A DNA stretch of 64,000 nt from Rhodospirillaceae bacterium (GCA_002718345.1 PBDA01000064.1:1-64000); one strand, 5' to 3'; shown: positions 6,048 through 53,769, counted from the first letter of the stretch. The notes: generated from the sequence alone by a model not told the origin. Program-made: numbers and translations.

Positions 6048-6104
6048 AACTAAAATTTACTAGCTAAACGGAACAAAAATTGAAAAATCAAATGATCATG
6101 CAAA

Positions 6105-7193
6105 CTATCTACCATCCGGCTGGGCATACTGCATAAGGATAGTACGAACATTATCAGGTGCATTAATCATTTCTCCTACCACACGTGTTCCTTCAATGTG
6201 GCTAATCAGAGGCATTCTCACTCCAAATAGTTCTAATTCCTCTGCTCGATAAGCATCATCATCAGTAGTAGCAACAAAACTGTTTCTTAATACATCGATA
6301 GCTTCTTCAGGGGAGTCAGGAGGCAAAAAAGCAGCGTGACCAAATGTGTTGATAGTTGGTTGCAACCACTTATAAATATCAAACATTTCCCCTGAAGGCT
6401 CTTCGCCCATTAGCTGGGAATAGACTTCTACAAAATTAGGTATTCCAGTAGCTGCTTCCTCATCTAAAACTACTCCAGCCTGATTAACTCGCGGGTTATG
6501 CCAAAGTGGAAGTGCTTGCCCTGTTTCAACCATTGGACCTTCAATTGAAAAACGGTATAGAGTCAACCCCGTAGTTTGCATGTCAACTTCTCCACGTCTT
6601 ACGGCATTAAATACCTCATTTGCACCAGAAAACCCTGTGATGTACTCATAGTTAACACCCAACATATCCAAGGCCATTCGCCCCAAAATATCGTAGTGAT
6701 GTGCGGGATTCTGGCCCGCATACTTTAGTCCCTGAGCAGATAATAATTGCTCAATACTTGCTACTTTGTCCGTTCGAACATAAACCAAGTTTGGACTTTT
6801 TAGTCCGCCAATCAGCGGCATAGCTTCAAAATCCGCTCTAAGCCCTGGCAATCCAAGAATTTCAGCAGTACCTGAAAAAGGGGAGAAAAGAATATTTAAT
6901 CCATCTGCATCGGCAAGCTCATATCCGAAATTCCAAACACGTATTCCGCCTCCACCTGGAATATTTCTTACAACAATTGTTGGATTTCCTGGGATATGCT
7001 GCTGCCAAAACTTAACAAAGGTTCGTATTGCTAAATCTGTACCAGAACCAGGCCCTCTTCCCACATAGATAGTGATTGTCTTTCCGGAATAAAATTCTTC
7101 TTGAGAAAAAACTTGAGAAGAATAGCTTATCAAAGTCATACAAACTAAAGCTGCATAACCTGTCAAACGAATACATTTGTATGCTTTAAACAT
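6105..7193 (-). CDS. Periplasmic Bug/TctC-type solute receptor of a tripartite tricarboxylate transporter
   Basis: A signal peptide (~1-30) precedes the Bug fold. The first beta-alpha unit has Y-V-G-R-G-P-G-S-G-T-D near residue 47, followed by I-P-G-N-P-x-I-V-V-R-N-I-P-G-G-G-G near 70-87, the pyrrolidine-type ligand-binding loop. Such receptors deliver carboxylates or amides to TctA-TctB. No permease gene adjoins it, and the only TctAB-like gene in the window is ~48 kb away. It diverges from the bicupin gene with only 29 bases between starts, so the two promoters must overlap. It is less similar to the two other Bug proteins in this window than those are to each other. Confidence 0.85.
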   Translation of the reverse strand: MFKAYKCIRLTGYAALVCMTLISYSSQVFSQEEFYSGKTITIYVGRGPGSGTDLAIRTFVKFWQQHIPGNPTIVVRNIPGGGGIRVWNFGYELADADGLNILFSPFSGTAEILGLPGLRADFEAMPLIGGLKSPNLVYVRTDKVASIEQLLSAQGLKYAGQNPAHHYDILGRMALDMLGVNYEYITGFSGANEVFNAVRRGEVDMQTTGLTLYRFSIEGPMVETGQALPLWHNPRVNQAGVVLDEEAATGIPNFVEVYSQLMGEEPSGEMFDIYKWLQPTINTFGHAAFLPPDSPEEAIDVLRNSFVATTDDDAYRAEELELFGVRMPLISHIEGTRVVGEMINAPDNVRTILMQYAQPDGR

Positions 7194-7222
7194 AAAAACT
7201 GTAGAACTTAGCTAAGACGATC

Positions 7223-8098
7223 ATGGATAATACTAGCGGACTTGTCTTTGGAAAAGAAAAAATGGCCGAGCTATTCAATCATGATTCTGTAAAAGTAGAA
7301 ATTTTGCCAGGAGGAGCTAAACGGCAACGCCTTATAGACGATACAAGAGTTAGTGGCAGTGAATGTATTTTTGATCGACTAGTGCTTGATTCTGGTACGA
7401 AACTAGAAATAAATGTCTCTGAAACAGAAATCATATGGGCACAATTACTCAAAGGTTCAGCAGCGTTAGCTGATGGGAAACAACATTCTAAACTAGACCA
7501 ACAACATGTTTTTTTTCTACCACCAAAATTCAGTGGCACACTTAGCACCACAACAGGAGCTACTTGCATCTTTCTTAAAGTCTGTAATGCACTTAAATTT
7601 GACCCCGATCTTGCAGCCACAAGCTCAAATGCTAAATTATTTGATCTAGGCTCAGAACCAATATTAGAGTCTAAGCATGACGAACGAACACGAGTCTACG
7701 TAGCGACAAAAAATCTATTTAATACAACTGCTCTTGCTGGGGAACTAGTTATTTTTCCCGCAGGATCAATGAGCGCCAACCATCATCATATTGGAGCCGA
7801 ACATTTTCAATTTATATTGAGTGGAGAAGGAACAGTTTTTCTTAATGAGACCCCATACCCACTAAGAAGTGGGGACCTTGTATATAAATATGATGGTGAA
7901 AGACACTACTGCCACAATCATGGCGATGAAGAATTTACGTTTGTTGAATTCTTTGTTCCTGGAAAATGGGAAACCATATGGGCGGATCCAGAAAGAAGCT
8001 GTACATGGTCTCCTACAGGGAAAAGCCTTCAAGGGGGAACAGCAAGTAGAAAAATTACCGCACACACAAGCGATGGAACTGTTTATGATGACGTATAG
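7223..8098 (+). CDS. Bicupin protein
   Basis: The 291-residue cytoplasmic protein contains two cupin barrels. The C-terminal one shows the metal motif N-H-H-H-x-G-A-E-H-x-Q-F near residues 186-197 and G-D-L-V-Y-x-x-x-G-E-R-H near 220-232. The N-terminal barrel lacks an evident His cluster and may be structural. Function could be a dioxygenase, isomerase or sugar-binding role, and sequence alone does not decide. An alternative start at ATG 7262 follows a purine-rich stretch. The first ATG leaves only 29 bases to the divergent receptor gene. Confidence 0.7.
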   Translation: MDNTSGLVFGKEKMAELFNHDSVKVEILPGGAKRQRLIDDTRVSGSECIFDRLVLDSGTKLEINVSETEIIWAQLLKGSAALADGKQHSKLDQQHVFFLPPKFSGTLSTTTGATCIFLKVCNALKFDPDLAATSSNAKLFDLGSEPILESKHDERTRVYVATKNLFNTTALAGELVIFPAGSMSANHHHIGAEHFQFILSGEGTVFLNETPYPLRSGDLVYKYDGERHYCHNHGDEEFTFVEFFVPGKWETIWADPERSCTWSPTGKSLQGGTASRKITAHTSDGTVYDDV

Positions 8099-8634: not shown

Positions 8635-10365
8635 TTAATAACCCATTGCAGCGCCGTCTTTTCGTGGGTCAGATCCACCAAAATAAACTAGCGGATCATC
8701 TGTACGCCAAATGGCTTGATAACCACCGTGTAGACCTGTTGTTGACGAGACACGATGACCAAGTTCAGCAAGTTGAAGTTTAACCAAATCAGGAACACCA
8801 TGTTCAAAAGCTAACTCACCTGAATGGTTTGACCGACCAAGCCAAGGACTACTCCGGCCTATATGACGTATTCGTGGTTGATCGCCGGCTTGCTGAGGAG
8901 ACATTTGAAAGTCGACCAAGTTCATTAACACCTGTACATGTCCTTGAGGCTGAAAATCTCCACCCATGACACCAAACGAAAGAAGAGGTCTACCCTCTTC
9001 AGTCAAAAACGCTGGAATTATTGTATGGAAGGGACGTTTGTGCGGCTCTAAACGATTAGGGTGATTTGGATCAAGCGAAAAAGCCTGACCTCGGTTTTGC
9101 ATTGCAAATCCAACACCATCAGGACAAATAGTTGAACCAAAGTCCGAATAAATGCTCTGAATAAGTGAAATCATATTCCCCTCATTATCTGCAGCAGTCA
9201 TATATATCGTGTCAGAATCCAAATCAGGATCACCAGGCATTACACTCTGATTTACAGCTGTTTGATCAATCAACGATGCTCGCTGAGTTCCATACTCTTT
9301 GGAAATTAACCAGTCCACTGGCACTTCTGAAAAAGCAGGGTCAGCGTAGTAACGCGCCCTATCTTCAAAAGCCAACCGCTTAGCCTCAATAAAAAGGTGC
9401 AAGTGTTCTGCAGAGTTATGTTCGAGGGAAGCAATATCAAAGTGTTCTAGCATATTTAACATTTGCAGTGCTGTAATGCCTTGACCATTAGGAGGCAATT
9501 CCCAAACATCAAATCCCCTATAACTAGTGCTCACCGGCTCTACCCAGTTTGCACTATGGTCTGCCAGATCTTTTAAGCTCATATACCCGCCAAGCTCATT
9601 AGATTTAGCTACTATTTGCTCAGCTATCTCTCCCTTATAAAATGCATCAGCTCCATCTTGAGCAATCTGTCTATAACTTTTTCCCAAAAGGGGGTTTCTA
9701 AAAATATCTCCAAATTTAGGGATAACCCCGTCAGGGTGATAAACACCTGCTAAATGAGGAAATCTTTCTCCAGTCCAGTAACCAAATTGAGTAGCAGCAA
9801 TAACCGGTGAAACTGGAAAGCCCTCCTCGGCATAACCAATAGCAGCTTCCAGACACTTCGCAAGACCCATTTTTCCAAAACGCTCGCTCAACATACTCCA
9901 ACCACTAACACAACCAGGCACAGTCCAAGACAAGGGGCTTTGGCGAGGAATCTGGTCTAGCGATTTTTCATTCGCCTTATCTAAATTCCATTCATATGGT
10001 GCTCGACCACTTGCATTTAAACCATAGAGACGCTGTTCCTGAGCTGACCAATAGATAGCAAATAAATCCCCCCCTATACCATCACTACCTGGCTCTGTTA
10101 ATCCAAGCATCGCATTGGTCGCAATCGCTGCATCTACGCAGGTACCCCCAGCTTTTAGAATATCGACACCAACCATGCTTGCAAGCGGCTGACTAGCACA
10201 TACTATGCCGTTGCTGCAGGCAACAGTTGATCGATTGCCATTGCGTCTATAAAGCTGCTGAACATCTAATGCTGGGCGTGTACCCTTAGCTAATGCTAGG
10301 GAAGAAGTTCCAGCTACAACTGCTGGAGCAGCACTAGCTACTTTTAAAAAATTTCGCCGATCCAT
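8635..10365 (-). CDS. Tat-exported gamma-glutamyltransferase / glutathione hydrolase-like Ntn hydrolase
   Basis: The 576-residue precursor starts D-R-R-N-F-L-K-V, a twin-arginine signal. The autoprocessing Ntn nucleophile is expected at Thr386 (S-D-T-I-Y). Arg121 in N-A-S-G-R-A-P and the G-G-D-F-Q-P-Q-G-H loop near residue 460 match substrate and oxyanion positions of GGT. The usual T-T-H context is D-T-I-Y here, so substrate preference may differ (the family includes cephalosporin and polyglutamate acylases). The ATG follows AGGGGGA. Periplasmic location suggests peptide or glutathione-conjugate scavenging. Confidence 0.9.
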   Translation of the reverse strand: MDRRNFLKVASAAPAVVAGTSSLALAKGTRPALDVQQLYRRNGNRSTVACSNGIVCASQPLASMVGVDILKAGGTCVDAAIATNAMLGLTEPGSDGIGGDLFAIYWSAQEQRLYGLNASGRAPYEWNLDKANEKSLDQIPRQSPLSWTVPGCVSGWSMLSERFGKMGLAKCLEAAIGYAEEGFPVSPVIAATQFGYWTGERFPHLAGVYHPDGVIPKFGDIFRNPLLGKSYRQIAQDGADAFYKGEIAEQIVAKSNELGGYMSLKDLADHSANWVEPVSTSYRGFDVWELPPNGQGITALQMLNMLEHFDIASLEHNSAEHLHLFIEAKRLAFEDRARYYADPAFSEVPVDWLISKEYGTQRASLIDQTAVNQSVMPGDPDLDSDTIYMTAADNEGNMISLIQSIYSDFGSTICPDGVGFAMQNRGQAFSLDPNHPNRLEPHKRPFHTIIPAFLTEEGRPLLSFGVMGGDFQPQGHVQVLMNLVDFQMSPQQAGDQPRIRHIGRSSPWLGRSNHSGELAFEHGVPDLVKLQLAELGHRVSSTTGLHGGYQAIWRTDDPLVYFGGSDPRKDGAAMGY

Positions 10366-10450
10366 TAGATAATCCCCCTCAAAATCATAATCTTTATAAC
10401 AGACAATCCTACGCTCTCACTCATTTTGCATCTAACAGAAAAAAAAAACA

Positions 10451-10954
10451 CTACGAAGTAACCACTCGACGCCCATAATAAAGATGACCACAGAGACGAT
10501 TTTCAAATTCAGCAACACCAGGCAAATGCCCCCACTTTTTAAACTCAAATTTCTCAAGAATCCCTATGCTTGAATAATTAGTATCTAACAGTATTGCAAA
10601 AAGCACTTTTATTCCCAGATCAGAGCATCTATTGATAATCTCTGCTATCAGGCTTGAGCCAATACCCATTCCATGGAAATCTTTATGTATGTAATAGCTT
10701 ATTTCAGCAGTTTGACGTAATGCCATTCGTCCCGGTCGGTAGGGACTAAGACTACACCAACCTTTAACAAAACCTTTTTCTTCAGCAACGAAGACCGGAT
10801 AGTCTTCATTGTGTGCAGCTAACCATTTACGTCGATTAGCAAGAGAGACAGCTGCAATATCAGCAGTAGATGTGCCTGACTCAATTGCTTGATTATATAT
10901 TTCTGTTATTGCAGGCAGATCAGTCTGTTTAGCAACACGAATTTGAAGACTCAT
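10451..10954 (-). CDS. GNAT N-acetyltransferase (phosphinothricin acetyltransferase-like)
   Basis: The 167-residue single GNAT domain begins with I-R-V-A-K-Q-T-D-L-P-A-I-x-x-I-Y-N, typical of the Pat/YncA branch. The acetyl-CoA pyrophosphate loop is G-M-G-I-G-S-S-L (~96-103). L-L-D-T-N-Y-x-S-I-G-I-L-E-K-F-E-F (~122-138) forms the C-terminal signature. It likely acetylates an amino acid, amine or similar small molecule. It is transcribed away from uppP. Confidence 0.88.
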   Translation of the reverse strand: MSLQIRVAKQTDLPAITEIYNQAIESGTSTADIAAVSLANRRKWLAAHNEDYPVFVAEEKGFVKGWCSLSPYRPGRMALRQTAEISYYIHKDFHGMGIGSSLIAEIINRCSDLGIKVLFAILLDTNYSSIGILEKFEFKKWGHLPGVAEFENRLCGHLYYGRRVVTS

Positions 10955-11123
10955 TAGACAAACCTATGCATTTTTTGAAAACTTAAATAAGACCTGCTGC
11001 GGCTCTTTTTTAATTAGAAACCCCTTTCCTAATAAAGACAAAAAATTTGTGGTCTAATTTTACCGGGTTCAAAGAATAAATCCTGACCGCACGCAATGTG
11101 TATGTTTGTGTATGATCAAACTC
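10955..11123. other. Divergent intergenic region between GNAT gene and uppP
   Basis: This 170-base AT-rich spacer must hold promoters for both flanking genes. I see no clear -35/-10 pair, terminator or RNA motif. Several in-frame alternative starts (TTG 11106, ATG 11112, ATG 11124) lie at its right edge. Confidence 0.3.
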
Positions 11124-11912
11124 ATGGAAGCTATTCAATCATTATTTCTTGGCATTCTACAGGGTCTTACAGAATTTCTGCCCGTATCAAGTTCTGGTCA
11201 CTTAGTAATTGCCCAATGGATTTTAGGTTTTGACTTAGGAGAAGGCATCCTGTTTGAAGTATCAGTACATTTTGCAACTATGTTTGCAATCCTTATTTTT
11301 TACAAAAATGAAGTTAAAGCGTTAGCAATTGGGGCAGTTTCTGCTAACCATGACTCACTGTGCTACATAGGGAAACTTATAATTGGGACTCTACCGGCTG
11401 TTGCTGTAGCCTTATTAGCAAAAAGTTGGATCGAACAGCAATTCGAACTGCCAGGTGTTACAGGATTATGCTTATTAGTTACTGGTGGAATCGTCTGGAG
11501 CACAAGATATACAATCAAAAAAGGTATCCGACTCGAGCCAACCTACTTAGAAGCGTTCTTAATTGGATGCGCACAGGCTATTGCCATCATGCCTGGAATT
11601 TCACGTAGCGGTTCTACAGTTGGAGTTGCTCTTGCATTAGGTCTTTCCCCAATGGCTGCTGCAAAGTTCTCTTTCTTACTGGGGGTAATTGCTATAACAG
11701 GAGCTGGCATCTTGCTTCTACCGGAGCTAACCACAGTTTCTGGTTTATTAGTTCAAAACATTGTCCTTGGCGTAGGTTCCGCTCTGATAAGTGGCCTCAT
11801 AGCACTTTGGCTTTTTGTTTGGCTTCTACAAAAACAGCGTTTTCATCTGTTCGCCTGGTATGCCTGGGCCGTTGGAATCACAACTCTGATCGCCGTTTTT
11901 ATCGCAAAGTAA
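11124..11912 (+). CDS. uppP: Undecaprenyl-diphosphatase UppP/BacA
   Basis: This integral membrane enzyme recycles undecaprenyl pyrophosphate to the monophosphate carrier for peptidoglycan and glycan synthesis. Both signatures are intact: L-T-E-F-L-P-V-S-S-S-G-H near residues 15-26 and P-G-I-S-R-S-G-S-T near 158-166. About eight hydrophobic segments are present. I prefer ATG 11124 because it gives M-E-A-I-Q-S-L-F-L-G, the family-like N-terminus. Upstream in-frame TTG 11106 and ATG 11112 are possible, and no strong ribosome binding site decides. Lipid-carrier supply fits with the glycan genes at 19.7-25 kb, but there is no direct linkage. Confidence 0.93.
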   Translation: MEAIQSLFLGILQGLTEFLPVSSSGHLVIAQWILGFDLGEGILFEVSVHFATMFAILIFYKNEVKALAIGAVSANHDSLCYIGKLIIGTLPAVAVALLAKSWIEQQFELPGVTGLCLLVTGGIVWSTRYTIKKGIRLEPTYLEAFLIGCAQAIAIMPGISRSGSTVGVALALGLSPMAAAKFSFLLGVIAITGAGILLLPELTTVSGLLVQNIVLGVGSALISGLIALWLFVWLLQKQRFHLFAWYAWAVGITTLIAVFIAK

Positions 11913-42554: not shown

Positions 42555-43442
42555 ATGAGTGAATCACAAGGGAAAAAATTAAGGATTGCCGTTGCTAAAA
42601 ACAAACCACTTCAAATGCCTGGCGCTATCAATGCGTATTGTGCACTCCTTGCAGAACGGACTGGTTTTGAATCACTTTATCTTTCTGGCGCGGGAGTAGC
42701 TAATGCCTCGCTTGGCATGCCCGATCTAGCAATAACTAGTTTGAATGATGTTTTAGAGGATATACGCAGAATAACTGCCGTCACAAGCCTGCCATTATTA
42801 GTAGATGCAGATACAGGTTGGGGAACTGCCTTCAACATCGCACGAACCACCAAAGAAATGATTAGAGCGGGAGTAGCTGGCATGCACATAGAAGACCAAG
42901 AACAGACAAAACGATGTGGCCACCGACCAAATAAGTCTACTGTTAGTTCAAAGGAAATGTGTGATCGTATAAAGGCTGCGGTAGATGCTCGCACTGATAC
43001 TGATTTTGTCGTCATGGCCCGTACAGATGCCTTTGCCAATGAAGGTAAAGAAGCTAGTTTGCAACGGGCATCAGCCTATATTGAGGCTGGTGCTGATATG
43101 ATATTTGCAGAAGCCCTATACACGTTAGATGACTATCGTGCATTTACCAATAATATAAATGTCCCGGTACTAGCCAATCTTACTGAATTTGGCCTTACTC
43201 CACAGTTCACAATTGAGGAGTTAGCTGATGTGGGCATCAGTATTGCGCTTTATCCATTATCAGCATTTAGAGCAATGAGCAATGCTGCGCTCAAAACCTA
43301 TGAAACGATTCGTAACAGCGGCACTCAAATAAAGATGCTTGATCAGATGCAAACACGTGATGAGCTATATGAAGTATTAAACTACCATACCTACGAAGAA
43401 AAATTAGATGACCTATACGGTAGAGAATCAAGAGATGATTAG
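42555..43442 (+). CDS. prpB: 2-methylisocitrate lyase
   Basis: This enzyme of the isocitrate-lyase superfamily splits 2-methylisocitrate to pyruvate and succinate. Y-L-S-G-A-G-V-A-N (~39-47), metal-site L-V-D-A-D-T-G-W-G (~81-89), the active-site loop K-R-C-G-H (~117-121) and M-A-R-T-D-A (~153-158) are all intact. The start is taken as ATG 42555 (M-S-E-S-Q-G), about 295 residues and typical for PrpB. Its last 8 bases overlap the prpC start (ATGATTAG), showing translational coupling. Confidence 0.94.
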   Translation: MSESQGKKLRIAVAKNKPLQMPGAINAYCALLAERTGFESLYLSGAGVANASLGMPDLAITSLNDVLEDIRRITAVTSLPLLVDADTGWGTAFNIARTTKEMIRAGVAGMHIEDQEQTKRCGHRPNKSTVSSKEMCDRIKAAVDARTDTDFVVMARTDAFANEGKEASLQRASAYIEAGADMIFAEALYTLDDYRAFTNNINVPVLANLTEFGLTPQFTIEELADVGISIALYPLSAFRAMSNAALKTYETIRNSGTQIKMLDQMQTRDELYEVLNYHTYEEKLDDLYGRESRDD

Positions 43443-44550
43443 GGCTAGTGGACTAAGAGGAATCTCAGCTGGGACAACGGCTATAGCAACCTGCGGTATG
43501 GATGGATACGGTCTCAATTACCGTGGTTACGATATCATCGATTTAGCTGAACATGCCTCCTTTGAAGAGGTTGCTTATTTGCTGCTTTATGGAGCACTAC
43601 CTAATAATCAGGAACTAATAGCATACTCCCAACTACTAAAAACTCTTAGAAAGGTTCCATCCAAACTTCTGGCAGTATTAGAGCAGATTCCCTCTAGTGC
43701 GCATCCCATGGATGTGATGCGAACTAGTTGTTCTGTGTTGGGAACAATAGAGCCAGAAGATGATTTTTCTATGCAACTAGATATAGCTAATCGCCTATTA
43801 GCAATATTTCCAGGGATATTGATGTATTGGCATCATTTTTCATTAAAGAAAAAAAGGATTGATACTAACTCGGATGAAGAAAGTCTGGCAGGTCACTTCC
43901 TGCATCTTTTGCATGGAGAAAGCCCAAATAAACTGCATGAGCGAGCAATGGATATTTCACTGATCCTTTATGCAGAACATGAGTTCAATGCATCAACTTT
44001 TGCCGCCAGAGTTTGTGCAGCAACCTTATCTGATTTTTATTCAGCGATAACCGGGGCTATTGGCACACTGCGTGGTCCGCTACATGGTGGAGCAAATGAA
44101 GCCGCTATGGACCTTATACTAAATTTTTCCAATCCAACAGAAGCAAAAAAAGGCTTAAAGAGCATGCTTAATCGTAAAGAAAAGATTATGGGTTTTGGTC
44201 ATGCTGTATATCGAGAGTCAGACCCACGCAATCAAATTATTAAGTTGTGGTCTAAAAAACTTTCAGAAAATATTAAAGATAATGTTATTTATCCAGTTTC
44301 TGTTGCTATTGAAAAGCTTATGTGGGATGAAAAAAAACTGTTCCCTAATCTAGATTTCTTTAGCGCTTCAACCTATCACTTTATGGGCATACCTACAGCA
44401 CTTTTTACTCCAATTTTTGTATGCTCAAGGATCACTGGGTGGTCTGCACACATCATTGAACAACGTGAAAACAATAAGCTAATAAGGCCTGCTGCAGATT
44501 ATAATGGCCCGAAACCAAGACCTTTCCCAACTCTTTCAAAACGGCCTTGA
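43435..44550 (+). CDS. prpC: 2-methylcitrate synthase
   Basis: This citrate-synthase-family enzyme condenses propionyl-CoA with oxaloacetate. Near the N-terminus, L-N-Y-R-G-Y-D-I-I-D-L-A-E-H matches PrpC and H-P-M-D-V-M-R-T (~89-96) is characteristic. Catalytic histidines lie in P-L-H-G-G-A-N-E and G-F-G-H-A-V-Y-R, and the aspartate is in the D-F-F-S-A-S region. The ATG at 43435 overlaps the prpB stop by 8 bases; an upstream in-frame start (43408) is less likely. This completes the prpD-prpB-prpC set. Confidence 0.94.
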   Translation: MIRASGLRGISAGTTAIATCGMDGYGLNYRGYDIIDLAEHASFEEVAYLLLYGALPNNQELIAYSQLLKTLRKVPSKLLAVLEQIPSSAHPMDVMRTSCSVLGTIEPEDDFSMQLDIANRLLAIFPGILMYWHHFSLKKKRIDTNSDEESLAGHFLHLLHGESPNKLHERAMDISLILYAEHEFNASTFAARVCAATLSDFYSAITGAIGTLRGPLHGGANEAAMDLILNFSNPTEAKKGLKSMLNRKEKIMGFGHAVYRESDPRNQIIKLWSKKLSENIKDNVIYPVSVAIEKLMWDEKKLFPNLDFFSASTYHFMGIPTALFTPIFVCSRITGWSAHIIEQRENNKLIRPAADYNGPKPRPFPTLSKRP

Positions 44551-44654
44551 AAAATATATGAAGAACTTAGACAAAAACCCGGTGTACTCTTCTGGACCGG
44601 ATCCCAGATACTCGATTGGTACTTAAGTCAAAAATAACAGATTAGAGCCGTTCC

Positions 44655-45224
44655 TTAGTTGGGCTGGATTGATCCAACCAAAACTAAGTCACCAGCTTCA
44701 GTAAGGCGCGCAAAGACGATTTCGCCCTCTTGAGGATAACGACCTATCAAAGCACCTATATTCACGGAATGGGTGACGAGTATTATTGGAGTGTTGAGAT
44801 CTTGCTCACTAATCCAATCACTAAGGCGTGATGTAATTACTTCACTTTGTCCCCGATATGCAATAAGTGAGTTCAGAAGCTCTAGCTCTTCAACCTCCCC
44901 TACTGACATCAATTCAGCTGTCTCAATACAGCGACACCACTGACTTGAGACTAGCCTGGCTTCACGCAAACCGCTCTCTCTAAGCATCAGACCAATCTCG
45001 CCTGCCTGCAACCTACCACCGTCAGATAAATTTCTTTGAGTAGAACAATCCCCTATTCGAAAATTAGCAGGATCACCTGAACCTGGTGCAATCGAATGTC
45101 GCATTAATGCAATATGCTCTCCTGATAGAAGAGCACGAATCAATTCTGGAGCATCAGCATATGCCTCAAGTGAGCCTAACAGTCCGCTAAAGAAGAGAGT
45201 AGTGAAAACAATTTTTCTGATCAT
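44655..45224 (-). CDS. Exported histidine phosphatase (SixA/PGAM fold)
   Basis: The 189-residue precursor has a signal peptide (~1-23). M-R-H-S (~41-44) contains the phosphoryl-accepting histidine (R-H-G is replaced by R-H-S). S-S-Q-W-C-R-C-I-E-T-A (~93-103) supplies the arginine, and V-T-H-S near 149 the second histidine. It probably dephosphorylates a small molecule in the periplasm. It is the last gene of the ThDP enzyme/cytochrome/TRAP receptor operon (36-base gap). Confidence 0.82.
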   Translation of the reverse strand: MIRKIVFTTLFFSGLLGSLEAYADAPELIRALLSGEHIALMRHSIAPGSGDPANFRIGDCSTQRNLSDGGRLQAGEIGLMLRESGLREARLVSSQWCRCIETAELMSVGEVEELELLNSLIAYRGQSEVITSRLSDWISEQDLNTPIILVTHSVNIGALIGRYPQEGEIVFARLTEAGDLVLVGSIQPN

Positions 45225-45260
45225 TTAAGTTCCCATACTTATCACCCAACTGCTAATTAT

Positions 45261-46286
45261 TTACAACCCAACTAGCTCCAGAAGCTCTTGTCGGTACTGG
45301 CCTCTTGCCTCATCATAAATTGGTGTTATTGCATCAATAAAGCTCTGAACTTCTTCAGATGTTAATTCCGCAATTTCACCACCCGACTCCTTAATTGCCA
45401 GTGCTGCTGCCTCCTCCTCACCATCCTTCATGCTACGTTGAAATGCGACAGCATCTGTTACAGCTAACCGCATCTCATTCTGTAGTTCCTCAGGCCAGGA
45501 TTCAAAAGTTTCCCGATGCAAAAAAATTGGCCTAGAAATATAAAAATGATTACTCGCTGTATGAAATTGATGAAAGTTATGAACTCCATAGGTAACAGTA
45601 TTGGCAAATGGGTTCTCCTGAGCATCTAGAGTATTAGCCTTAACACGTTCAATAGCTTCAGTAAGATCCATAATCTCCGGTTCGGCGCCAAGTAACTCAA
45701 ACGTTCTGGCGTGTACTTGACTGGGCAGCACACGGATTGTCATATCTTCTAGATCAGATGGAGACCTGACAGGCTTTACACGATTTGAAATGTGTCTTAA
45801 TCCATTTTCAAAATAACCAAGAATTCGATAATTAGTCTGTGCCTCAATACTTTCAGTAAGTAATTCACCCAAACGGCCATCCATAGCCCGACGGGCACTG
45901 ATGTTATCTGAAAAAAGAAAGGGCAAATCTACTAGCCCGAGGTCAGAGACTCTATCAGTAAGATAACTGCTTGATTGGTAACCAAGGGTAAGAATACCTT
46001 GTTCTACAAGCCAGAGAATATCTAAACCACGATAACCAAGATCCATAATGTTATAGACATATCTCACATCAACTTGATCCCCAAAACGGGCTTCAAGTCG
46101 ATCACCAATTCGCTTTAATGCAAGACTGAAACTAGTTGTTGGTGGGCCATATCCCGCCATAATAATGCGATATGGTCCGCCATTTGCATTAGGAGACTGT
46201 GCCTTAGCTGAAGTCATTCCGAATTTACCAACACCTGCACTTGCTCCAAGCAAGGCTGACGCCTGAAGAAAACGTCGTCTCGACAT
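45261..46286 (-). CDS. Tat-exported TRAP transporter DctP-type receptor
   Basis: S-R-R-R-F-L-Q-A-S opens a twin-arginine signal, unusual for DctP proteins, which mostly use Sec. The mature fold shows L-E-D-M-T-I-R-V (~163-170) and the ligand region D-L-T-E-A-I-E-R-V-K-A-N-T-L-D-A-Q-E-N (~189-207). Tat export may mean folding with a ligand or metal in the cytoplasm. A perfect TAGGAGGA ribosome binding site precedes the ATG. It is operonic with cytochrome c and the ThDP enzyme, and no DctQM permease gene is nearby. Confidence 0.87.
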   Translation of the reverse strand: MSRRRFLQASALLGASAGVGKFGMTSAKAQSPNANGGPYRIIMAGYGPPTTSFSLALKRIGDRLEARFGDQVDVRYVYNIMDLGYRGLDILWLVEQGILTLGYQSSSYLTDRVSDLGLVDLPFLFSDNISARRAMDGRLGELLTESIEAQTNYRILGYFENGLRHISNRVKPVRSPSDLEDMTIRVLPSQVHARTFELLGAEPEIMDLTEAIERVKANTLDAQENPFANTVTYGVHNFHQFHTASNHFYISRPIFLHRETFESWPEELQNEMRLAVTDAVAFQRSMKDGEEEAAALAIKESGGEIAELTSEEVQSFIDAITPIYDEARGQYRQELLELVGL

Positions 46287-46327
46287 AAGTTCCTCCTAAA
46301 ACTTAGATAAAACACCACTCAAAGCTT

Positions 46328-46681
46328 CTAAAAATCCAGTTCCGGAATATCCTCCAGTGATGGGGGCTCGGGTATTGAACTAACATACTCATAAATTAGC
46401 CTAAGATCCTGGTCACTAAGTACGTTTGGTGAATAAGCAGGCATAAGGTTGGTACGCCGAACAAATTGTACAAACGCCTCAAATGGATATAGCGTAGGTG
46501 CTATACGAGGCCCATGTGCTCCACCTTGTCCTTGATAGCTATGACATTGCCAACACTGATAACTTTCATACAGTAACTGTCCGGCCATTGCATCATCAAC
46601 ATCTTGCCCATAAACCAACCCTCCCCATAAGCAAAAGCAAATGGAGACAAAAAAAATATAAAATCTCCTCAAATGAATCAT
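46328..46681 (-). CDS. Small exported mono-haem cytochrome c
   Basis: The 117-residue precursor has a signal peptide (~1-25). The haem attachment site is Cys43-W-Q-Cys46-His47, and Met80 (N-L-M-P-A-Y) is the probable sixth ligand, followed by the usual L-x-x-x-Y-E-Y-V-S-S-I helix. It is a class I cytochrome c, likely periplasmic. It starts 11 bases after the ThDP-enzyme gene, with GGGGAG overlapping that space, so it is probably the dedicated electron acceptor of that enzyme. Confidence 0.9.
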   Translation of the reverse strand: MIHLRRFYIFFVSICFCLWGGLVYGQDVDDAMAGQLLYESYQCWQCHSYQGQGGAHGPRIAPTLYPFEAFVQFVRRTNLMPAYSPNVLSDQDLRLIYEYVSSIPEPPSLEDIPELDF

Positions 46682-46692
46682 TTGTCTCCCCT

Positions 46693-48687
46693 CTACCGTG
46701 GTTGAGTCCGCACGTGAACAAATGCAGGCTCACCTGACTCCACAACATCAAGTGCTCGAGTAATTGCTGGACCAATATCTTTTGGGTCTGAGTAGGGGCC
46801 TTCCGACCAAACACCCATACCCTCCACAACCTTTGCTAGATCTATCTCCGGATTTCTAAGCTCATTACCCACCCAAGAACTTCCATCAATACCTCGCTGT
46901 CTTCTAGCAGACATTCGTTGTAAATGCATAAACTCCTGATGATAAGCCTGATTATCATGAGTAACCGTTAACATTGGAATATCATGGTGTGCAGCAGTCC
47001 AAAACGTACCAGGCACATACATCATGTCTCCGTCACGTTGCACATTAATTGGCAGACGACCTTCTGGACGGTGAGCTAATGCTGCGCCTAGTGCAGATGG
47101 TGCTCCATAACCAAGGCCCGCACCACCAGATCGACCTATCCACTGATAATGTTTATCTATAGGCCACAACCGCCTTGCCCACCGGTTTTGTTGATTATCA
47201 TCGGATACAAGCGCCCAGTCCCGGTCCTTCACAACATTCCAAAGCTCAGCGTAAAGCCGGCCTGTACTCACTGGCGCCGCATTCCATCCATAGCGTGCCC
47301 AGTCTTTATCTTGCGCACGCTGTCGAGCATGGGCTTCTTCCCAACGTACTTTTCTTTCAGCATTAGATGCTCGTCTTTCTCGAGACATTGCTGACTGAAC
47401 CGCCTCCGTTAACACAGGCAAAGTTGCCTGTGCATCTCCTGCTATGGATAAATCAGTAGAAAAATAACGTTGAAAGCTTTGATAATTTGATTTGGTGAAC
47501 AGGTCTTTAACACCAATATCTATGACTTTAGCATCTGGTCGTGCCCGTCTTTGGACATCTTTATGAACACGATCACGCATTTGATTAATGGTCCCCCATG
47601 TATCATAAAGCTCCAACCCCAGAATAACATCAGCTTGTGCAATAGCATTTGCGCCCTGAGACAAGTAGTGATTATTAGGAAAATTCATCCGACCAAACTG
47701 ATTGACCACGGGTGCTTGCAATGCCTCTGCTAAAGCAACTAAGCGTTCAACACCCTCCTGATTATGGGCCATCAAGTCAACTACAATTACTGGATTATCA
47801 GCCTCTACTAACCACCGGGCGGCTTCGTCAACCGCATTGGTGTCACCACTAGGTGGCTGAGTCGGCGTCATAGCTGGCATTGATACCTGCTGTTCACCAA
47901 GCTCCTCTTCCTGAAGGTGCCCATCCAAAACAATAGCTACGGGCCCCATTGGTGGAGTCATAGCTATTTTATATGCGCGTGCCATGGATTCAGCAAAATG
48001 CTGCAGTGAAACAGGATTGTCATCCCATTTAATATAATCGCGAATTACTCTTACACAATCTTGTGCTGAGTGTGACCACTCAACTCCCGGTCTCCGATGA
48101 GTTACATCGAGATGATTGCCTGCAAGAATAACCATCGGGCTGCGATCACACCACGCGTTATAAACTGACATTGCAGCATGCTGTAACCCAACTGTTCCAT
48201 GGGCGAGCATTGCTAACGGCTTACCGGTAACTTTGTAGTAGCCATGGGCCATAGCAGTAGCAATTTCTTCGTGAGTAGCCTCAATCAACTCAGGGGACTT
48301 ATTGCCTCCATAATTAACGATGGATTCATGGATCCCTCTAAAACTTGAACCAGGATTTGTAGTGACGTACTCAAACTCTAACCCCTTTAAAACATCCACC
48401 ATGAAATCAGAACCAGGATTGGTTACAAAATATTGCTTCGCTTCATCAGCTGTGTAACCAACAGGAATCTCATTCTCCATTGCTTCTTGCTGAGCGCTAG
48501 GAGGCGCTACTGCAGCAAATCGCCTGTTTAGCAATTCTTGTGGCAATGCTTCCTTAGAAGCACCTACTGACGCAGCAGCTAAACCTGCCGCTGTAGCTGT
48601 AGAAAGGAACTCCCTTCGATTAACACTCTTACCCTTATCTTTATTATTCTCGAGCGGATCGCATTTTGATTTTTTCTGTGACTTCAT
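46693..48687 (-). CDS. Tat-exported thiamine-diphosphate-dependent enzyme (acetolactate synthase/benzoylformate decarboxylase fold)
   Basis: The N-terminal region holds N-R-R-E-F-L-S-T near residue 24, followed by an alanine-rich hydrophobic stretch, giving a twin-arginine signal. The three ThDP-enzyme domains follow. The cofactor-activating glutamate is in T-H-E-E-I-A-T-A-M-A-H-G-Y near 137. The C-terminal diphosphate/Mg motif begins D-G-D-M-M-Y and ends at T-H-D-N, in the family's G-D-x(~25)-N arrangement. Reaction type is open: decarboxylase, oxidase or carboligase. Periplasmic export of such an enzyme is very unusual. ATG 48687 follows a near-perfect GGAGGTGA. It heads a cytochrome c/TRAP receptor operon. 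Confidence 0.85.
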   Translation of the reverse strand: MKSQKKSKCDPLENNKDKGKSVNRREFLSTATAAGLAAASVGASKEALPQELLNRRFAAVAPPSAQQEAMENEIPVGYTADEAKQYFVTNPGSDFMVDVLKGLEFEYVTTNPGSSFRGIHESIVNYGGNKSPELIEATHEEIATAMAHGYYKVTGKPLAMLAHGTVGLQHAAMSVYNAWCDRSPMVILAGNHLDVTHRRPGVEWSHSAQDCVRVIRDYIKWDDNPVSLQHFAESMARAYKIAMTPPMGPVAIVLDGHLQEEELGEQQVSMPAMTPTQPPSGDTNAVDEAARWLVEADNPVIVVDLMAHNQEGVERLVALAEALQAPVVNQFGRMNFPNNHYLSQGANAIAQADVILGLELYDTWGTINQMRDRVHKDVQRRARPDAKVIDIGVKDLFTKSNYQSFQRYFSTDLSIAGDAQATLPVLTEAVQSAMSRERRASNAERKVRWEEAHARQRAQDKDWARYGWNAAPVSTGRLYAELWNVVKDRDWALVSDDNQQNRWARRLWPIDKHYQWIGRSGGAGLGYGAPSALGAALAHRPEGRLPINVQRDGDMMYVPGTFWTAAHHDIPMLTVTHDNQAYHQEFMHLQRMSARRQRGIDGSSWVGNELRNPEIDLAKVVEGMGVWSEGPYSDPKDIGPAITRALDVVESGEPAFVHVRTQPR

Positions 48688-48724
48688 GGCGCTCACCTCC
48701 GGTTAGAGGAGCCTCATAGGGCTC
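48688..48724 (-). promoter_or_regulatory. Structured leader with two mutually exclusive stems over the Shine-Dalgarno
   Basis: On the minus strand, GAGCC and GGCTC (48720-48724 and 48709-48713) form one stem. GCTCCTC (48706-48712) can instead pair with the Shine-Dalgarno segment GAGGTGAGC (48691-48699), hiding it. The two pairings share bases, so they exclude each other. This is the layout of a translational switch. No known riboswitch class was recognised. Confidence 0.4.
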
Positions 48725-48798
48725 GAAGACGATTGATCATCAACAAAGCATAGAACCTGAGAGAGCTTAATGCCACTGCTTTTGACATTACATAACAG

Positions 48799-49734
48799 TT
48801 AATCTGGCTTATTCGGCTCTTCAAAAAATGACTCATTAATGTACTTAGAGTGATTTGTAAGTTGCATTGAAGGGGTAGCATACCTAGAACGCAATTTTAG
48901 TACGGTATCGATACCCTGAAAATCTAGCGAACCGTTAGGAGTGAGGCCAGTTATAGGGTTTAAAAGTTTTTTCATAACAGCATTTGCCACTCTCGGTTGA
49001 ATTGCAGGCATCTTAGCTAAAAGAATATCTTTTGCTGCTTCGTAATTACCAGAATCTAGAGTCCATTTTAGACCGGCAAGATATCCCTTCATAAAACCTC
49101 TTATTATTTCCGGGTTATTTTCAGCCCAACTACTACTTGCCGCAAAGACTCCTCCTTGGTAATTTGGCACTGTATCCACGCTTGTCTGTAAAACACGAAA
49201 GCCATTTGCTAACGCAATGCTTGTGAAAGGTTCTATTGTCAAAGTCCCAACATGGTCTCCCGAACGAACTGATTCCCAACGCTTTGGTGTAGCTCCGACT
49301 GGAGCTAACTCACAATCCTCAATTGATAACCCAGCTTTCTCAATCATGTCATACAGAACAAATGCAAATCCGGTTGCAAGCGCATCCAACGCGATAGAAC
49401 GACCTTTAATATCGTCGTAAGTCTGTATTTCAGGAGCAACAATTAAAGAAAGCTCAATGTGAGTCGCGCCCATAAAAGCAACCAAGTCAGGTGAAACATC
49501 AAAACTTATTGCACCCTGCCCTTCTTTATATGCCACAACATTATCAAAAGCAGTTCCAGCTATTTGAAATTGACCTTTTACTAAGTTCTCAATTTGATAT
49601 ACAGAACTAGGAGTTGTTTCCAGATGAACATCCAACCCAACATCTTTAAAATAACCTAATTCCAGAGCTGCAAAAATTGGCAAATTTGGCGCGCCAGGAA
49701 AACAAATAAGCTCTAAACTATTTTGCAAACTCAT
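48799..49734 (-). CDS. NMT1/THI5-SsuA-like substrate-binding protein without a signal peptide
   Basis: The ~311-residue product begins M-S-L-Q-N-S-L-E-L-I-C-F-P-G-A-P-N. F-A-A-L-E-L-G-Y-F (~24-32) is the NMT1/SsuA entry helix, and I-K-G-R-S-I-A-L-D (~110-118) and Y-L-A-G-L near 225 are further family marks. No hydrophobic leader is present. The ATG overlaps the stop of the molybdenum hydroxylase gene (TGATG), so translation is coupled. It may act in the cytoplasm as a sensor, chaperone or enzyme rather than a classic transport receptor. A longer in-frame start at 49779 adds a Cys-rich leader that overlaps the upstream gene and is rejected. Confidence 0.78.
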   Translation of the reverse strand: MSLQNSLELICFPGAPNLPIFAALELGYFKDVGLDVHLETTPSSVYQIENLVKGQFQIAGTAFDNVVAYKEGQGAISFDVSPDLVAFMGATHIELSLIVAPEIQTYDDIKGRSIALDALATGFAFVLYDMIEKAGLSIEDCELAPVGATPKRWESVRSGDHVGTLTIEPFTSIALANGFRVLQTSVDTVPNYQGGVFAASSSWAENNPEIIRGFMKGYLAGLKWTLDSGNYEAAKDILLAKMPAIQPRVANAVMKKLLNPITGLTPNGSLDFQGIDTVLKLRSRYATPSMQLTNHSKYINESFFEEPNKPD

Positions 49735-52106
49735 CAAATTTTTTCCTGAGCACTTTGGGCATTTTGGATTGCAGTCCACACCCTAAATGGCGTTGCCGGC
49801 ATCTCGATATCACGTACACCGTAATCTCTTAAGGCATTTACAATCGCATTAATTACTACCGCTAGAGCCGGTGTTGTTGGGCCTTCTCCGCCAGACTTTA
49901 TCCCCAACGGATTAGTTGGTGAAAAAACCTCATTGAAGGCTGTTGAAAACATGGGCACATCATCAGCGCGAGGCAGAGTGTAATCCATTAAAGACCCCGT
50001 AATTGGCTGACCAGAACCCTGATCGATTAGGCAATACTCCATGAGAGCCTGCCCAAGCCCTGTAGTTATTGAACCATGTGTCTGGCCATCAACAATCATT
50101 GGATTAATTACACGGCCAACATCATCAACTGCAACATAACGCTCTAATTTGACTTGGCCGGTTTCCGGATCTACCTCAACTTCACAGGCTGCACAACCAT
50201 TGGGGAAAACCGCAACATCCATTTCATTTTCCCGAGAAACGGATAATCCGTTTTCTAATTCTTTTGGTAAATTTGATGATTCGACTACTTTGGCTAGCTC
50301 GAACCAATCAATTGTTTTGCCAATAGTTCGAATATTAAAAACACCACCAGAAAACTCTACTTCTTTTAAATCCACGTTATAAAGAAAGCTTGCAATTTTT
50401 CTGCCTTGCTTTATTAGATCCTTGCACGCAAGAAAAATAACCGTACCTGCCTGCCTCATTGATCGCCCAGAATGCGACCCTCCTCCAGATTTCACTATAT
50501 CAGTATCACCAACTATGATTTTCACATAATCTAAATCAATACACATAAAATCAGCAGCAACCTGCGCAAAGCTAGTCTCCTGCCCTTGACCAGTAGGTTG
50601 GGTTCCAATAACAACCTCAACAACCTGCTCTGATTTAACTATAATATCGGTCCGTTCCATGGGAGCGCCAATAGATGACTCAACATAATTGGCAAATCCT
50701 CTTCCTAAACACTTACCTCTAGAATGTGCTTGTGTTTCTCTACCTGTAAAACCTAACCAATCAATCATCTCAAGAGCGATATCCATACTCTTTTCATAGT
50801 TGCCACTGTCATATTTAACTCCTAGTGGGTTTGTGTAAGGCATAGCAGCCGATGGAATTAGGTTTTTACGGCGTAGCTCAATAGGATCGAAACCACATTC
50901 ATATGCAGCAGTATCAATGATCCGTTCAAGAGCATGGCATACCTCTGGACGGCCCGAACTACGATAAGCCTGTGTAGGAACTGTATTAGTAAAAACCCCA
51001 CGAGCTCGGGCTGTCGCTGTTGGAATATTATAACTACCAGTAACTAAAGCAATTCCTTTACCCAAGGGAGAAAGCGAAACTATCCAAGCACCAAGATTGC
51101 TTAGATTAGATGCCTTATAACCAAGAAACTGCCCATCCGAACTCAGAGCTAACTCAACACTAGTCTTAAGATCTCGACCCTGATAATCGCTTAAAAAAGA
51201 TTCAGATCGAGTAGCTGTAAACTTAACTGCCCGACCAAGCTGTTTAGCCGCCCAGAGAGTTAAGCCAAACTCAGAGTAAACACGATTTTTAGTACCAAAA
51301 TTACCTCCAACATCGAAGCAAAGAATTCTAATTTTTTCTGGGTTTTCTCCTAAAGCTGAGGCAATCTGGTGCTTGTGCCGAACCGCCCCATTACTTCCTG
51401 CGTATAATGTATATCGACCGGTATCATCATCAAAACTTGCTAATGCTGCTCTAGGTTCCAATGGAACTCCTGTTACCCTTCCAATATTAAAATCCATTTG
51501 AACAACGTAATCTGCTTGCTTAAAGACAGATTCCGTTTTCTTTGGGTCTCCAAAAGTTGTATCAACACAGGTATTGCTAGGAACAGCATCCCAAATAACT
51601 GGTGCATTGGCTGCTGCAGCCATATGACTATCTGCAACTGAAAGAATCGGATCATAGTCAACAAAAACACTCTCTGCTGCATCAACTGCTTGATTTCGCG
51701 TTTCAGCAATCACCATTGCAATAGGCTCTCCCACATAGCGGACCTTATCAAGGGCCAAAAGTGTATGCGGGCCTTCAAAAATCTCGTTACCTCCAGGTCC
51801 GGTCAACTTAAGATCTGATCGGGTTGAAGGAACTGGGCTATGAGGTATGGATCCCAACCCTGCCTGTTTGCAATCACTACCCGTCAGTACCAAAAGAACG
51901 CCAGGCATTTCCTCTGCTACAGCTGTCTCAATTTCAAGAATTTTTGCATGTGGGTAAACAGAACGAACCATAACTGCATAAACCTGGTCAGAAATGTTAA
52001 AGTCATCGCTGAACCGCCCCTCTCCGCGAACAAGCCTATCATCCTCCTTGCGAGGAACTGGCTTACCAATAGACTTAAAGCATATTTCTTTAAAATCTGT
52101 GGTCAT
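49734..52106 (-). CDS. Xanthine dehydrogenase-family molybdopterin-binding large subunit (CoxL/HcrA-like)
   Basis: The 790-residue subunit begins with the hammerhead domain (G-K-P-V-P-R-K-E-D, R-L-V-R-G-E-G-R-F-S-D-D). Molybdopterin-binding segments follow: D-V-G-G-N-F-G-T-K (~264-272), A-Y-R-S-S-G-R-P-E (~388-396), G-Q-G-Q-E-T-S-F near 512, and G-S-I-T-T-G-L-G-Q-A-L near 690. The catalytic glutamate is in S-G-G-E-G-P near 748. The A-Y-R-S-S-G-R loop is neither CoxL (C-S-F-R) nor classical XDH, so the substrate is unknown. No [2Fe-2S] or FAD subunit gene adjoins. It lies between ubiD and a substrate-binding protein in one operon. Confidence 0.9.
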   Translation of the reverse strand: MTTDFKEICFKSIGKPVPRKEDDRLVRGEGRFSDDFNISDQVYAVMVRSVYPHAKILEIETAVAEEMPGVLLVLTGSDCKQAGLGSIPHSPVPSTRSDLKLTGPGGNEIFEGPHTLLALDKVRYVGEPIAMVIAETRNQAVDAAESVFVDYDPILSVADSHMAAAANAPVIWDAVPSNTCVDTTFGDPKKTESVFKQADYVVQMDFNIGRVTGVPLEPRAALASFDDDTGRYTLYAGSNGAVRHKHQIASALGENPEKIRILCFDVGGNFGTKNRVYSEFGLTLWAAKQLGRAVKFTATRSESFLSDYQGRDLKTSVELALSSDGQFLGYKASNLSNLGAWIVSLSPLGKGIALVTGSYNIPTATARARGVFTNTVPTQAYRSSGRPEVCHALERIIDTAAYECGFDPIELRRKNLIPSAAMPYTNPLGVKYDSGNYEKSMDIALEMIDWLGFTGRETQAHSRGKCLGRGFANYVESSIGAPMERTDIIVKSEQVVEVVIGTQPTGQGQETSFAQVAADFMCIDLDYVKIIVGDTDIVKSGGGSHSGRSMRQAGTVIFLACKDLIKQGRKIASFLYNVDLKEVEFSGGVFNIRTIGKTIDWFELAKVVESSNLPKELENGLSVSRENEMDVAVFPNGCAACEVEVDPETGQVKLERYVAVDDVGRVINPMIVDGQTHGSITTGLGQALMEYCLIDQGSGQPITGSLMDYTLPRADDVPMFSTAFNEVFSPTNPLGIKSGGEGPTTPALAVVINAIVNALRDYGVRDIEMPATPFRVWTAIQNAQSAQEKI

Positions 52107-52111
52107 GAGAC

Positions 52112-52124
52112 AAAACTACCCTTT
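52112..52124 (-). repeat. 13-base leader repeat AAAGGGTAGTTTT, copy 1
   Basis: The motif lies 5 bases ahead of the molybdenum hydroxylase ATG and overlaps the UbiD-type gene stop. An identical 13-mer precedes the UbiD-type gene itself. AAGGG may serve as an unusually distant ribosome binding site. Confidence 0.4.
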
Positions 52125-53769
52125 AACCATCCTCTACATCTCTAGCAGGGGTCTCAGGAACTAAACCTGATTGCCTGCGCTTAAAAGTCTGAACACCACT
52201 ATCTACCCAGCGTCCACTAACAGCATTCTGAGCAAACATCTCCCAAACATCACTCCAATCTCCCATCGAGTATCCATGCCAAGGTGCTTTAGGCGACAAT
52301 TCAGGTAATTTCAATTCTTCCCAGATAGCACGAGCATTTTCCATAAACTCACGGGCAGGCAATGCCAATGGCGTCATATTAGTTTTACGAGTTGCATCAA
52401 CTAGAATGCCTGATTCCTCACCTTTATTTCCTTTTGGTCCATGCCCACGTTTTCTTCCTGCAACAATACGTAGGTCATCGACGGCGTTCATACGATAAGC
52501 TAGAGACCAGAAAATAGCGTCCATGTTTAATGCATCAATATCACTACTAAGTGCGATGACAATTTTTCCGCACTGCGCTTGCAAAGTTGAGGCTCCCTCA
52601 AGTCCGCGCCAAACTTCCTTTCGTGGTGTATCGTCCTCAAAACGTAGAAAGATGACTGGCCTGATATTCGTCAACGCTTCATGCATTGTGACACTGAGTA
52701 TCCCATCTACTTTTAGCTCCTCCTGCAAATAGTTTAAGAAAAGTGGCTCATAGGCAACCCGCTTAATGACACTCGACTCACTTGGTGTAACCTGGCTCAC
52801 TATAGATGGGAATATCGGTGAACGCTTCCTAGTGATTGCAGTTACCTGCATGGACATATTGAAATCTTCCAATGCAACATAACCATGACTTTCACCAAAT
52901 GGCCCTTCAGGTTCCAATAACTCCGTGTCTATAAACCCTTCAATTACGATTTCCGCATCTGCAGGAACCTCTAAATCTACCGTAACTGCTTTTGCTACCC
53001 GAATGGGAGAATTAGCTAAGGCTCCAGCAACGCCCATTTCATCTTGATCAACTGCTAGTTTTTGTGGTCCGCTATATGCAACTACAGGAGGTACGCCAAC
53101 AGCGATAGCACAAGGCATAGGTTCTCCTAGCTTTTGATATTTTTGCCAATGAAGGTATCCACCTGCTCCTCCTACGCGAGTAGCCATTCGCACACCTAAC
53201 CTATCAGAAGCTTTAAGAGCACCCCTGTAAGTTCCCATGTTACGTATACCAGTTTCAGGGTCTTTGGTAATTACTATTGTTGCAGCTAGGTAGGGCGCAG
53301 AATCGTAACCCGGAGTTGATACTGGTACAGGCAAACTTTCAAGGCCATGCCCCTTTTTTAGCGATTCGCCTTGCATGATTACTTCCTGACAAGGTGGAGA
53401 CTCTATCACTAAAGGGGGTATTGGATTTTCAATGGCATGCATCCATCTAGCGCCAATATTTTCCAACGGCACGCCCATACCGATTGAATAAATCTCTGGG
53501 GTCGTCGCTAACGCACCAACTGCAACAGGTATATCGTATTTTTTCCCTTCTCCATTAATTACATTTGTAAATAAAAAAGCCGTACGATCTGATTCAGACA
53601 AGCCTCCCTGAAATTGCCATCGAACCAATGGGTGTAGCTCTGTATCTTTATTAATTGGGCGGTCTATACGCCTAAGTAGACCTCTTGATTCCAATTTAGC
53701 AAGGTGATCCTGAAAATCAGGATAAGAAGGCTGAGCCTTTTCTAAGCTATTAGTTTGATCAGTGCTCAT
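52123..53769 (-). CDS. UbiD-family prenylated-FMN decarboxylase
   Basis: The 548-residue enzyme matches UbiD: G-T-Y-R-G-A (~176-181), E-P-E-G-P-F-G-E-S-H-G-Y (~268-279) containing the glutamate acid/base, and R-G-L-E-G-A-S-T-L near 379. UbiD enzymes reversibly decarboxylate aromatic, heteroaromatic or alpha,beta-unsaturated acids with prenylated FMN. The UbiX partner that makes the cofactor is not in this window. It heads an operon with the Mo hydroxylase (16-base gap), pointing to aromatic or heterocyclic acid breakdown rather than ubiquinone synthesis. Confidence 0.9.
   Translation of the reverse strand: MSTDQTNSLEKAQPSYPDFQDHLAKLESRGLLRRIDRPINKDTELHPLVRWQFQGGLSESDRTAFLFTNVINGEGKKYDIPVAVGALATTPEIYSIGMGVPLENIGARWMHAIENPIPPLVIESPPCQEVIMQGESLKKGHGLESLPVPVSTPGYDSAPYLAATIVITKDPETGIRNMGTYRGALKASDRLGVRMATRVGGAGGYLHWQKYQKLGEPMPCAIAVGVPPVVAYSGPQKLAVDQDEMGVAGALANSPIRVAKAVTVDLEVPADAEIVIEGFIDTELLEPEGPFGESHGYVALEDFNMSMQVTAITRKRSPIFPSIVSQVTPSESSVIKRVAYEPLFLNYLQEELKVDGILSVTMHEALTNIRPVIFLRFEDDTPRKEVWRGLEGASTLQAQCGKIVIALSSDIDALNMDAIFWSLAYRMNAVDDLRIVAGRKRGHGPKGNKGEESGILVDATRKTNMTPLALPAREFMENARAIWEELKLPELSPKAPWHGYSMGDWSDVWEMFAQNAVSGRWVDSGVQTFKRRQSGLVPETPARDVEDG

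Follow-up and report, generated by a model that had tools for sequence, protein, structure and literature searches.

In several periplasmic dehydrogenase systems, among them the SorAB sulfite dehydrogenase, p-cresol methylhydroxylase and methanol dehydrogenase with its cytochrome cL, the exported enzyme has a small c-type cytochrome to itself, the gene for which is adjacent to that of the enzyme. These systems rely on molybdenum, FAD or PQQ, and we know of no periplasmic dehydrogenase-cytochrome c pair of this type that uses thiamine diphosphate (ThDP). To our knowledge, the ThDP enzymes acting on 2-oxo acids are regarded as cytoplasmic, with NAD, flavin, Fe-S centers or lipoamide as electron acceptors. 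Thus, in the cytoplasmic pyruvate oxidase (PoxB) and 2-oxoacid:ferredoxin oxidoreductases a ThDP carbanion is oxidized by a redox partner, the acceptor being FAD/quinone or an Fe-S cluster, whereas benzoylformate decarboxylase (MdlC; 1bfd, 4q9d), which is likewise cytoplasmic, is non-oxidative and has neither a Tat signal nor a cytochrome partner. The locus described here, located in a 64,000-nucleotide stretch of DNA (the window) from a Rhodospirillaceae metagenome-assembled genome (MAG), has points in common with each of these systems: the chemistry that we propose for it is that of PoxB and the ferredoxin oxidoreductases, its enzyme has the same three-domain ThDP fold as benzoylformate decarboxylase, and its predicted exported enzyme with a neighboring cytochrome gene recalls SorAB, p-cresol methylhydroxylase and methanol dehydrogenase.

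A first-pass annotation of the window had described an operon at 45261-48687 encoding a ThDP enzyme, a cytochrome c, a DctP receptor and an exported histidine phosphatase, and we recovered all four genes at or just beyond these limits (Table 1). The enzyme start given there, 48687, is an in-frame ATG located three codons after the GTG (48696) chosen by the ORF caller, and either might be the true start. The cytochrome c gene starts 11 bp downstream of the stop codon of the enzyme, exactly the spacing previously reported; the DctP gene follows after another 41 bp and the phosphatase-like gene lies 36 bp past the latter. The Tat signal that had been noticed on the DctP receptor is matched by TIGR01409, while the phosphatase, though present, falls outside the range assigned to the operon and exceeds its Pfam cut-off only narrowly. 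The N-terminus of the ThDP enzyme, SVNRREFLSTATAAGLAAASVG, is typical of a Tat signal, with the twin-arginine motif NRREFL. Promoter and terminator scans across 44400-49000 returned nothing beyond what shuffled sequence gave.

Table 1. Features of the ThDP enzyme-cytochrome c locus, in window coordinates
Feature	Coordinates	Strand	Basis
ThDP-dependent enzyme, 667 aa	46693..48696	(-)	Pfam PF02775/PF02776/PF00205; AlphaFold/Foldseek; 86-row clade
Tat (twin-arginine) signal region of the ThDP enzyme, VNRREFLSTATAAGLAAASVGASKEALPQELL	48529..48624	(-)	motif and conservation
E143, predicted ThDP-activating glutamate	48268..48270	(-)	falls on benzoylformate decarboxylase E47 in alignment
ThDP/Mg motif (R)DGD...(D)N, residues 555-582 of the enzyme	46951..47034	(-)	aligned to GDG...NN of benzoylformate decarboxylase
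Mono-haem c-type cytochrome, 117 aa, N-terminal Sec-like signal	46328..46681	(-)	PF13442 (Cytochrome_CBB3)/PF00034
Haem attachment motif CWQCH (single) of the cytochrome	46541..46555	(-)	sequence; C43, C46, H47 invariant
DctP solute-binding protein, Tat signal	45261..46286	(-)	PF03480 (E = 5.5e-49), TIGR01409
Exported histidine-phosphatase-like protein (His_Phos_1)	44655..45224	(-)	PF00300 just above cut-off; PRK06193 (NCBIfam) below

All three domains of the ThDP superfamily, PYR, central and PP (PF02776, PF00205 and PF02775), score above the Pfam cut-offs in the window enzyme, and its AlphaFold model (pLDDT 82.7, pTM 0.81) retrieves glyoxylate carboligase and benzoylformate decarboxylase as best Foldseek matches, with E-values down to 1e-33; these two together with benzaldehyde lyase, acetolactate synthase and cyclohexane-1,2-dione hydrolase are near equals at 16-20% identity. 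Since the protein falls far short of every curated cut-off (152 of 493 bits for NCBIfam benzoylformate decarboxylase, 134.8 of 538 for acetolactate synthase and 90.7 of 742 for NCBIfam pyruvate oxidase), it belongs to the superfamily without falling into any of its named families. Its initial description as an enzyme of acetolactate synthase fold holds as regards the superfamily domains, but the sequence is nearer to benzoylformate decarboxylase, and the curated score rules out that it is an acetolactate synthase as such. The motifs RFDDR and DID of the FAD-binding acetolactate synthases, which an acetolactate synthase-like enzyme of the same genome (L006) does carry, are missing from the window enzyme when the two are aligned; on these motifs it can be argued that the enzyme probably carries no FAD.

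To evaluate the link between the enzyme and the cytochrome, every homologue was taken with its downstream DNA, and the presence of a Tat motif (RR.F[LIVAM] followed by an uncharged stretch) and of a downstream CxxCH gene was scored by fixed rules. The count was limited to the 109 loci whose ends are intact, which come from Alpha-, Beta- and Gammaproteobacteria: in 81 a Tat signal goes together with an adjacent cytochrome, 28 possess neither, and none has just one of them. In all 81 intact Tat-type homologues the CxxCH ORF begins between -23 and +18 bp from the enzyme stop, with a median gap of 8 bp and a frequent 4-bp overlap, and the encoded cytochromes are mono-haem in 72 cases and di-haem in nine. 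By comparison, only 2 of 472 other ORFs of at least 150 aa in the same regions have such a neighbor, which rules out a chance association. Four further loci (L049, L064, L084 and L119) show a cytochrome without a visible Tat motif; their enzyme N-termini are cut or contain Ns, and we do not count them as real exceptions. The form RRxF[L] followed by an uncharged h-region, as expected of a Tat substrate, is seen in the window enzyme and its 81 intact paired homologues alike. The recurrent synteny suggested at the outset is thus found without exception among the intact Tat-type loci, and the twin-arginine signal, whose absence from most homologues was to have told against the idea, is retained in every cytochrome-linked enzyme with an intact N-terminus.

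Of 196 genomes searched within the window's own order, 36 contain strong homologues (E <= 1e-100), and a search of 297 genomes of a second family (f225), which is probably Burkholderiaceae-like, gave matches at E <= 1e-90 in 47, Tat-type and non-Tat enzymes combined; in the class and phylum samples just weak, non-Tat relatives were seen outside the order. Some of the named loci belong to MAGs recorded as Rhodospirillaceae, Herbaspirillum and Gammaproteobacteria. The arrangement is also present on plasmids: in Caballeronia zhejiangensis (NZ_CP084287.1), from a strain recorded as a cell culture, the gene for WP_244808613.1, a thiamine pyrophosphate-binding protein, is followed after 8 bp by that for the c-type cytochrome WP_244808614.1, and Novosphingobium sp. 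KACC 22771 has an equivalent pair. In the latter, two different CxxCH cytochrome genes follow the enzyme (L092, downstream of 8686).

In a maximum-likelihood tree all paired rows fall on one side of a single branch (86 rows, SH-aLRT 85), and the rows that have neither Tat signal nor cytochrome lie outside this clade. The clade reaches down to about 37% identity and includes Alpha-, Beta- and Gammaproteobacteria. As all pairs belong to one clade, the association appears, as far as this sample shows, to have arisen once and to have persisted across deep divergence and through transfer from one proteobacterial class to another. The distance matrices of enzymes and cytochromes are correlated (mirror-tree r = 0.88; none of 2000 permutations reaches this value, the best being 0.20), as would be expected of partners inherited together. 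The loci are related by descent, and a few are overlapping fetches or near-copies, so the Fisher p of 1e-26 for co-occurrence is not independent evidence: the 81 paired loci go back to a single old association that was retained and do not count as 81 separate events, and the argument is one of persistence. The genome that contains the window encodes a second Tat-type ThDP enzyme, 53% identical to the first (contig 53:7367-9343; L035:7361-9346), with a di-haem cytochrome directly downstream and a gene for DctM, the TRAP large permease, about 3 kb upstream. A Herbaspirillum MAG (L010) provides a natural side-by-side comparison, with a Tat-type copy and its cytochrome (5773-7746) followed 1.7 kb on by a non-Tat copy without one (9465-11300). 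An enzyme 52% identical to that of the window also occurs in a record titled Klebsiella pneumoniae MAG (L009), a label that looks doubtful because the row closest to it in the tree comes from a Gammaproteobacteria MAG.

Within the clade E143, D555, G556, D557 and N582 are invariant (86/86); E143 is equally invariant in the 28 rows outside it, and the other four positions in all aligned rows. Loss of the ThDP ligands, which had also been named as a reason to abandon the proposal, is accordingly not observed, and a degenerate, ThDP-less homologue is ruled out. The window enzyme has RDG in place of the usual GDG and DN in place of NN; among its relatives the second N of the motif is always kept and the first G varies. 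Alignments to benzoylformate decarboxylase, the nearest solved sequences at about 20% identity, pair E143 with E47, H166 with H70 and, by motif, S117 with S26. Of the four site residues considered (Ser26, Glu47, His70 and His281) the first three thus have counterparts, H166 being conserved in 83 and S117 in 82 of the 86 rows, but the fourth does not, the equivalent of H281 being kept in just 30. The predicted active site resembles that of benzoylformate decarboxylase. Non-exported relatives in the wider family, PRK08327-like "thiamine pyrophosphate-binding proteins" (e.g. L013, L082, L094 and L142; 32-38% identity), share the ThDP ligands and H166 but lack both Tat signal and cytochrome in 28 of 28 intact cases. 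The residues that separate the exported clade from them cluster in the loop that follows the Mg ligand: H586, E588 and M590 are specific to the clade, and the relatives have Y/F/G, D and other residues at these positions, with Y/F/G-N-D replacing H586-x-E588. It is in this loop that a changed reaction or a changed partner would be expected to leave its mark. The retention of the twin-arginine signal, of the ThDP ligands and of the gene linkage strongly supports the presence of a ThDP enzyme that is predicted to be exported and is paired with a cytochrome c of its own.

Among 29 aligned homologues of the partner cytochrome C43, C46, H47 and M80 are invariant; the protein, with its CxxCH motif and distal methionine, is therefore a His/Met class I cytochrome c. 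Its profile matches include subunits of the bc1 complex, CcoP of the cbb3 oxidase, quinone alcohol dehydrogenase and the cytochrome subunit of p-cresol methylhydroxylase. No structural match at E <= 0.001 was obtained when its fold was searched, so this placement rests on the sequence profile. The MAG containing the window encodes TatC twice (contigs 13 and 16). The Ccm model PF01578 found no match in this MAG, which is 86% complete; Ccm-type proteins (PF01578) are present in five of six relatives.

The remaining genes vary from locus to locus, so the four-gene operon did not survive as a conserved unit: just the enzyme and the cytochrome are conserved, and the other two genes are local additions. 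DctP lies beside the pair only in the closest relatives (L036 and L037, with an intervening gene in L037) and is a genus-level neighbor, while the phosphatase is an occasional one, with homologues close to the pair in just two loci (L054 and L056). Upstream of the pair the window encodes NMT1-like, XDH/MoCo-like and UbiD-like proteins (48799-53769, minus strand), and XDH-like and/or NMT1-like homologues lie upstream of the enzyme in seven other loci (L036, L037, L038, L039, L041, L048 and L080). All three types of gene recur solely in the nearest clade, and a search around the pairs for a recurrent third gene yielded none beyond close relatives; for this reason we do not read the substrate from the gene neighborhood. 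TRAP transporter genes do recur near several copies of the enzyme in this lineage (DctP in the window, DctM on contig 53), which hints at small carboxylates, and the XDH-type genes that lie upstream of the enzyme in near relatives might be taken just as well as a sign of aldehydes. A citrate synthase gene is located near the pair in Caballeronia (L091:6346-7701) as well as in the window (43408-44550), possibly by coincidence.

The features that can be read from the genes, namely ThDP/Mg ligands, a predicted Tat signal, a His/Met-haem cytochrome, an obligatory genetic pairing and common descent, lead us to propose that the pair constitutes an extracytoplasmic ThDP oxidoreductase, in which the C2-alpha carbanion formed from a 2-oxo acid is oxidized by the enzyme's own cytochrome c. 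We assign this reading a probability of about 0.58. Under this proposal, the enzyme would bind ThDP and Mg and fold in the cytoplasm, and the Tat system, judging from the signal, would export it in folded form. Once at the outer side of the inner membrane, the enzyme would attack and decarboxylate a 2-oxo acid to give the C2-alpha carbanion/enamine. As the enzyme has no recognizable FAD site, two electrons might then pass directly from the carbanion to the haem of the dedicated cytochrome, one at a time; the acyl-ThDP would be hydrolyzed to the acid and the reduced cytochrome would feed the respiratory chain. A precedent for such flavin-free one-electron oxidation is provided by DXP synthase, whose ThDP carbanion gives electrons to O2 and dyes (PMC11908136). 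Of the extracytoplasmic route originally suggested, the predicted export and the pairing are upheld, and an oxidative decarboxylation that passes electrons to the cytochrome is its likeliest interpretation; the most likely substrate would be a 2-oxo acid, with an aldehyde or acyloin as possible alternatives.

The same redox pair might draw on another donor, with a Breslow intermediate formed from an aldehyde or by cleavage of an acyloin or 1,2-diketone, in which case it would be a periplasmic aldehyde/acyloin dehydrogenase. The structural neighborhood leaves room for this, given that benzaldehyde lyase, glyoxylate carboligase and cyclohexane-1,2-dione hydrolase match the model nearly as well as benzoylformate decarboxylase does at about 20% identity, and the molybdenum hydroxylase (XDH-type) genes of near relatives would fit; but in its best-matching sequences and in the S117/E143/H166 set the enzyme looks like a 2-oxo acid decarboxylase, and we consider this donor unlikely. 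The enzyme might also be a non-redox periplasmic decarboxylase or carboligase that releases an aldehyde or acyloin, with the cytochrome serving another, unlinked dehydrogenase that oxidizes the product. The non-oxidative nature of its nearest solved family and the missing FAD motif are in keeping with this; against it, the pair has no other redox enzyme as a conserved neighbor, and the cytochrome is never absent from the 81 loci and co-evolves with the enzyme, which makes such an arrangement rather improbable.

A reading that would dispense with export altogether takes the N-terminus as a membrane anchor, or as a segment that the Tat system does not recognize, and leaves a cytoplasmic enzyme with an unrelated cytochrome as its neighbor. 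In its favor, the Pfam Tat model is not among the Pfam matches of the window enzyme. The twin-arginine motif and uncharged stretch, however, are confined to the paired enzymes, none of the 28 intact unpaired ones having them, and R27, R28 and F30 are at least 90% conserved (alignment A1) although the linker that follows them varies; we regard this reading as very improbable.

In the favored reading, that of a periplasmic 2-oxo acid (or aldehyde/acyloin):cytochrome c oxidoreductase, the pair might represent a novel class of respiratory dehydrogenases, in which a flavin-free ThDP enzyme exported by Tat directly reduces a dedicated c-type haem through its carbanion intermediate, a proposition to which we give even odds. 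A full-text search of the open-access literature found no description of Tat export of a ThDP enzyme of this kind; going by that literature, the parts are known and the combination is new. If direct electron transfer proves real, the pair would merit separate classification. With an exported ThDP enzyme joined to a c-type haem of its own, the periplasmic dehydrogenases would gain another type of cofactor beside molybdenum, PQQ and flavin, and ThDP redox chemistry a new acceptor. Such an enzyme would also explain genes that bear no more than a "thiamine pyrophosphate-binding protein" annotation in many Burkholderiaceae-like and Rhodospirillales-like genomes, and the pair suggests an undescribed bacterial route by which small organic acids or aldehydes may be oxidized beyond the inner membrane, with their electrons passing to respiration.
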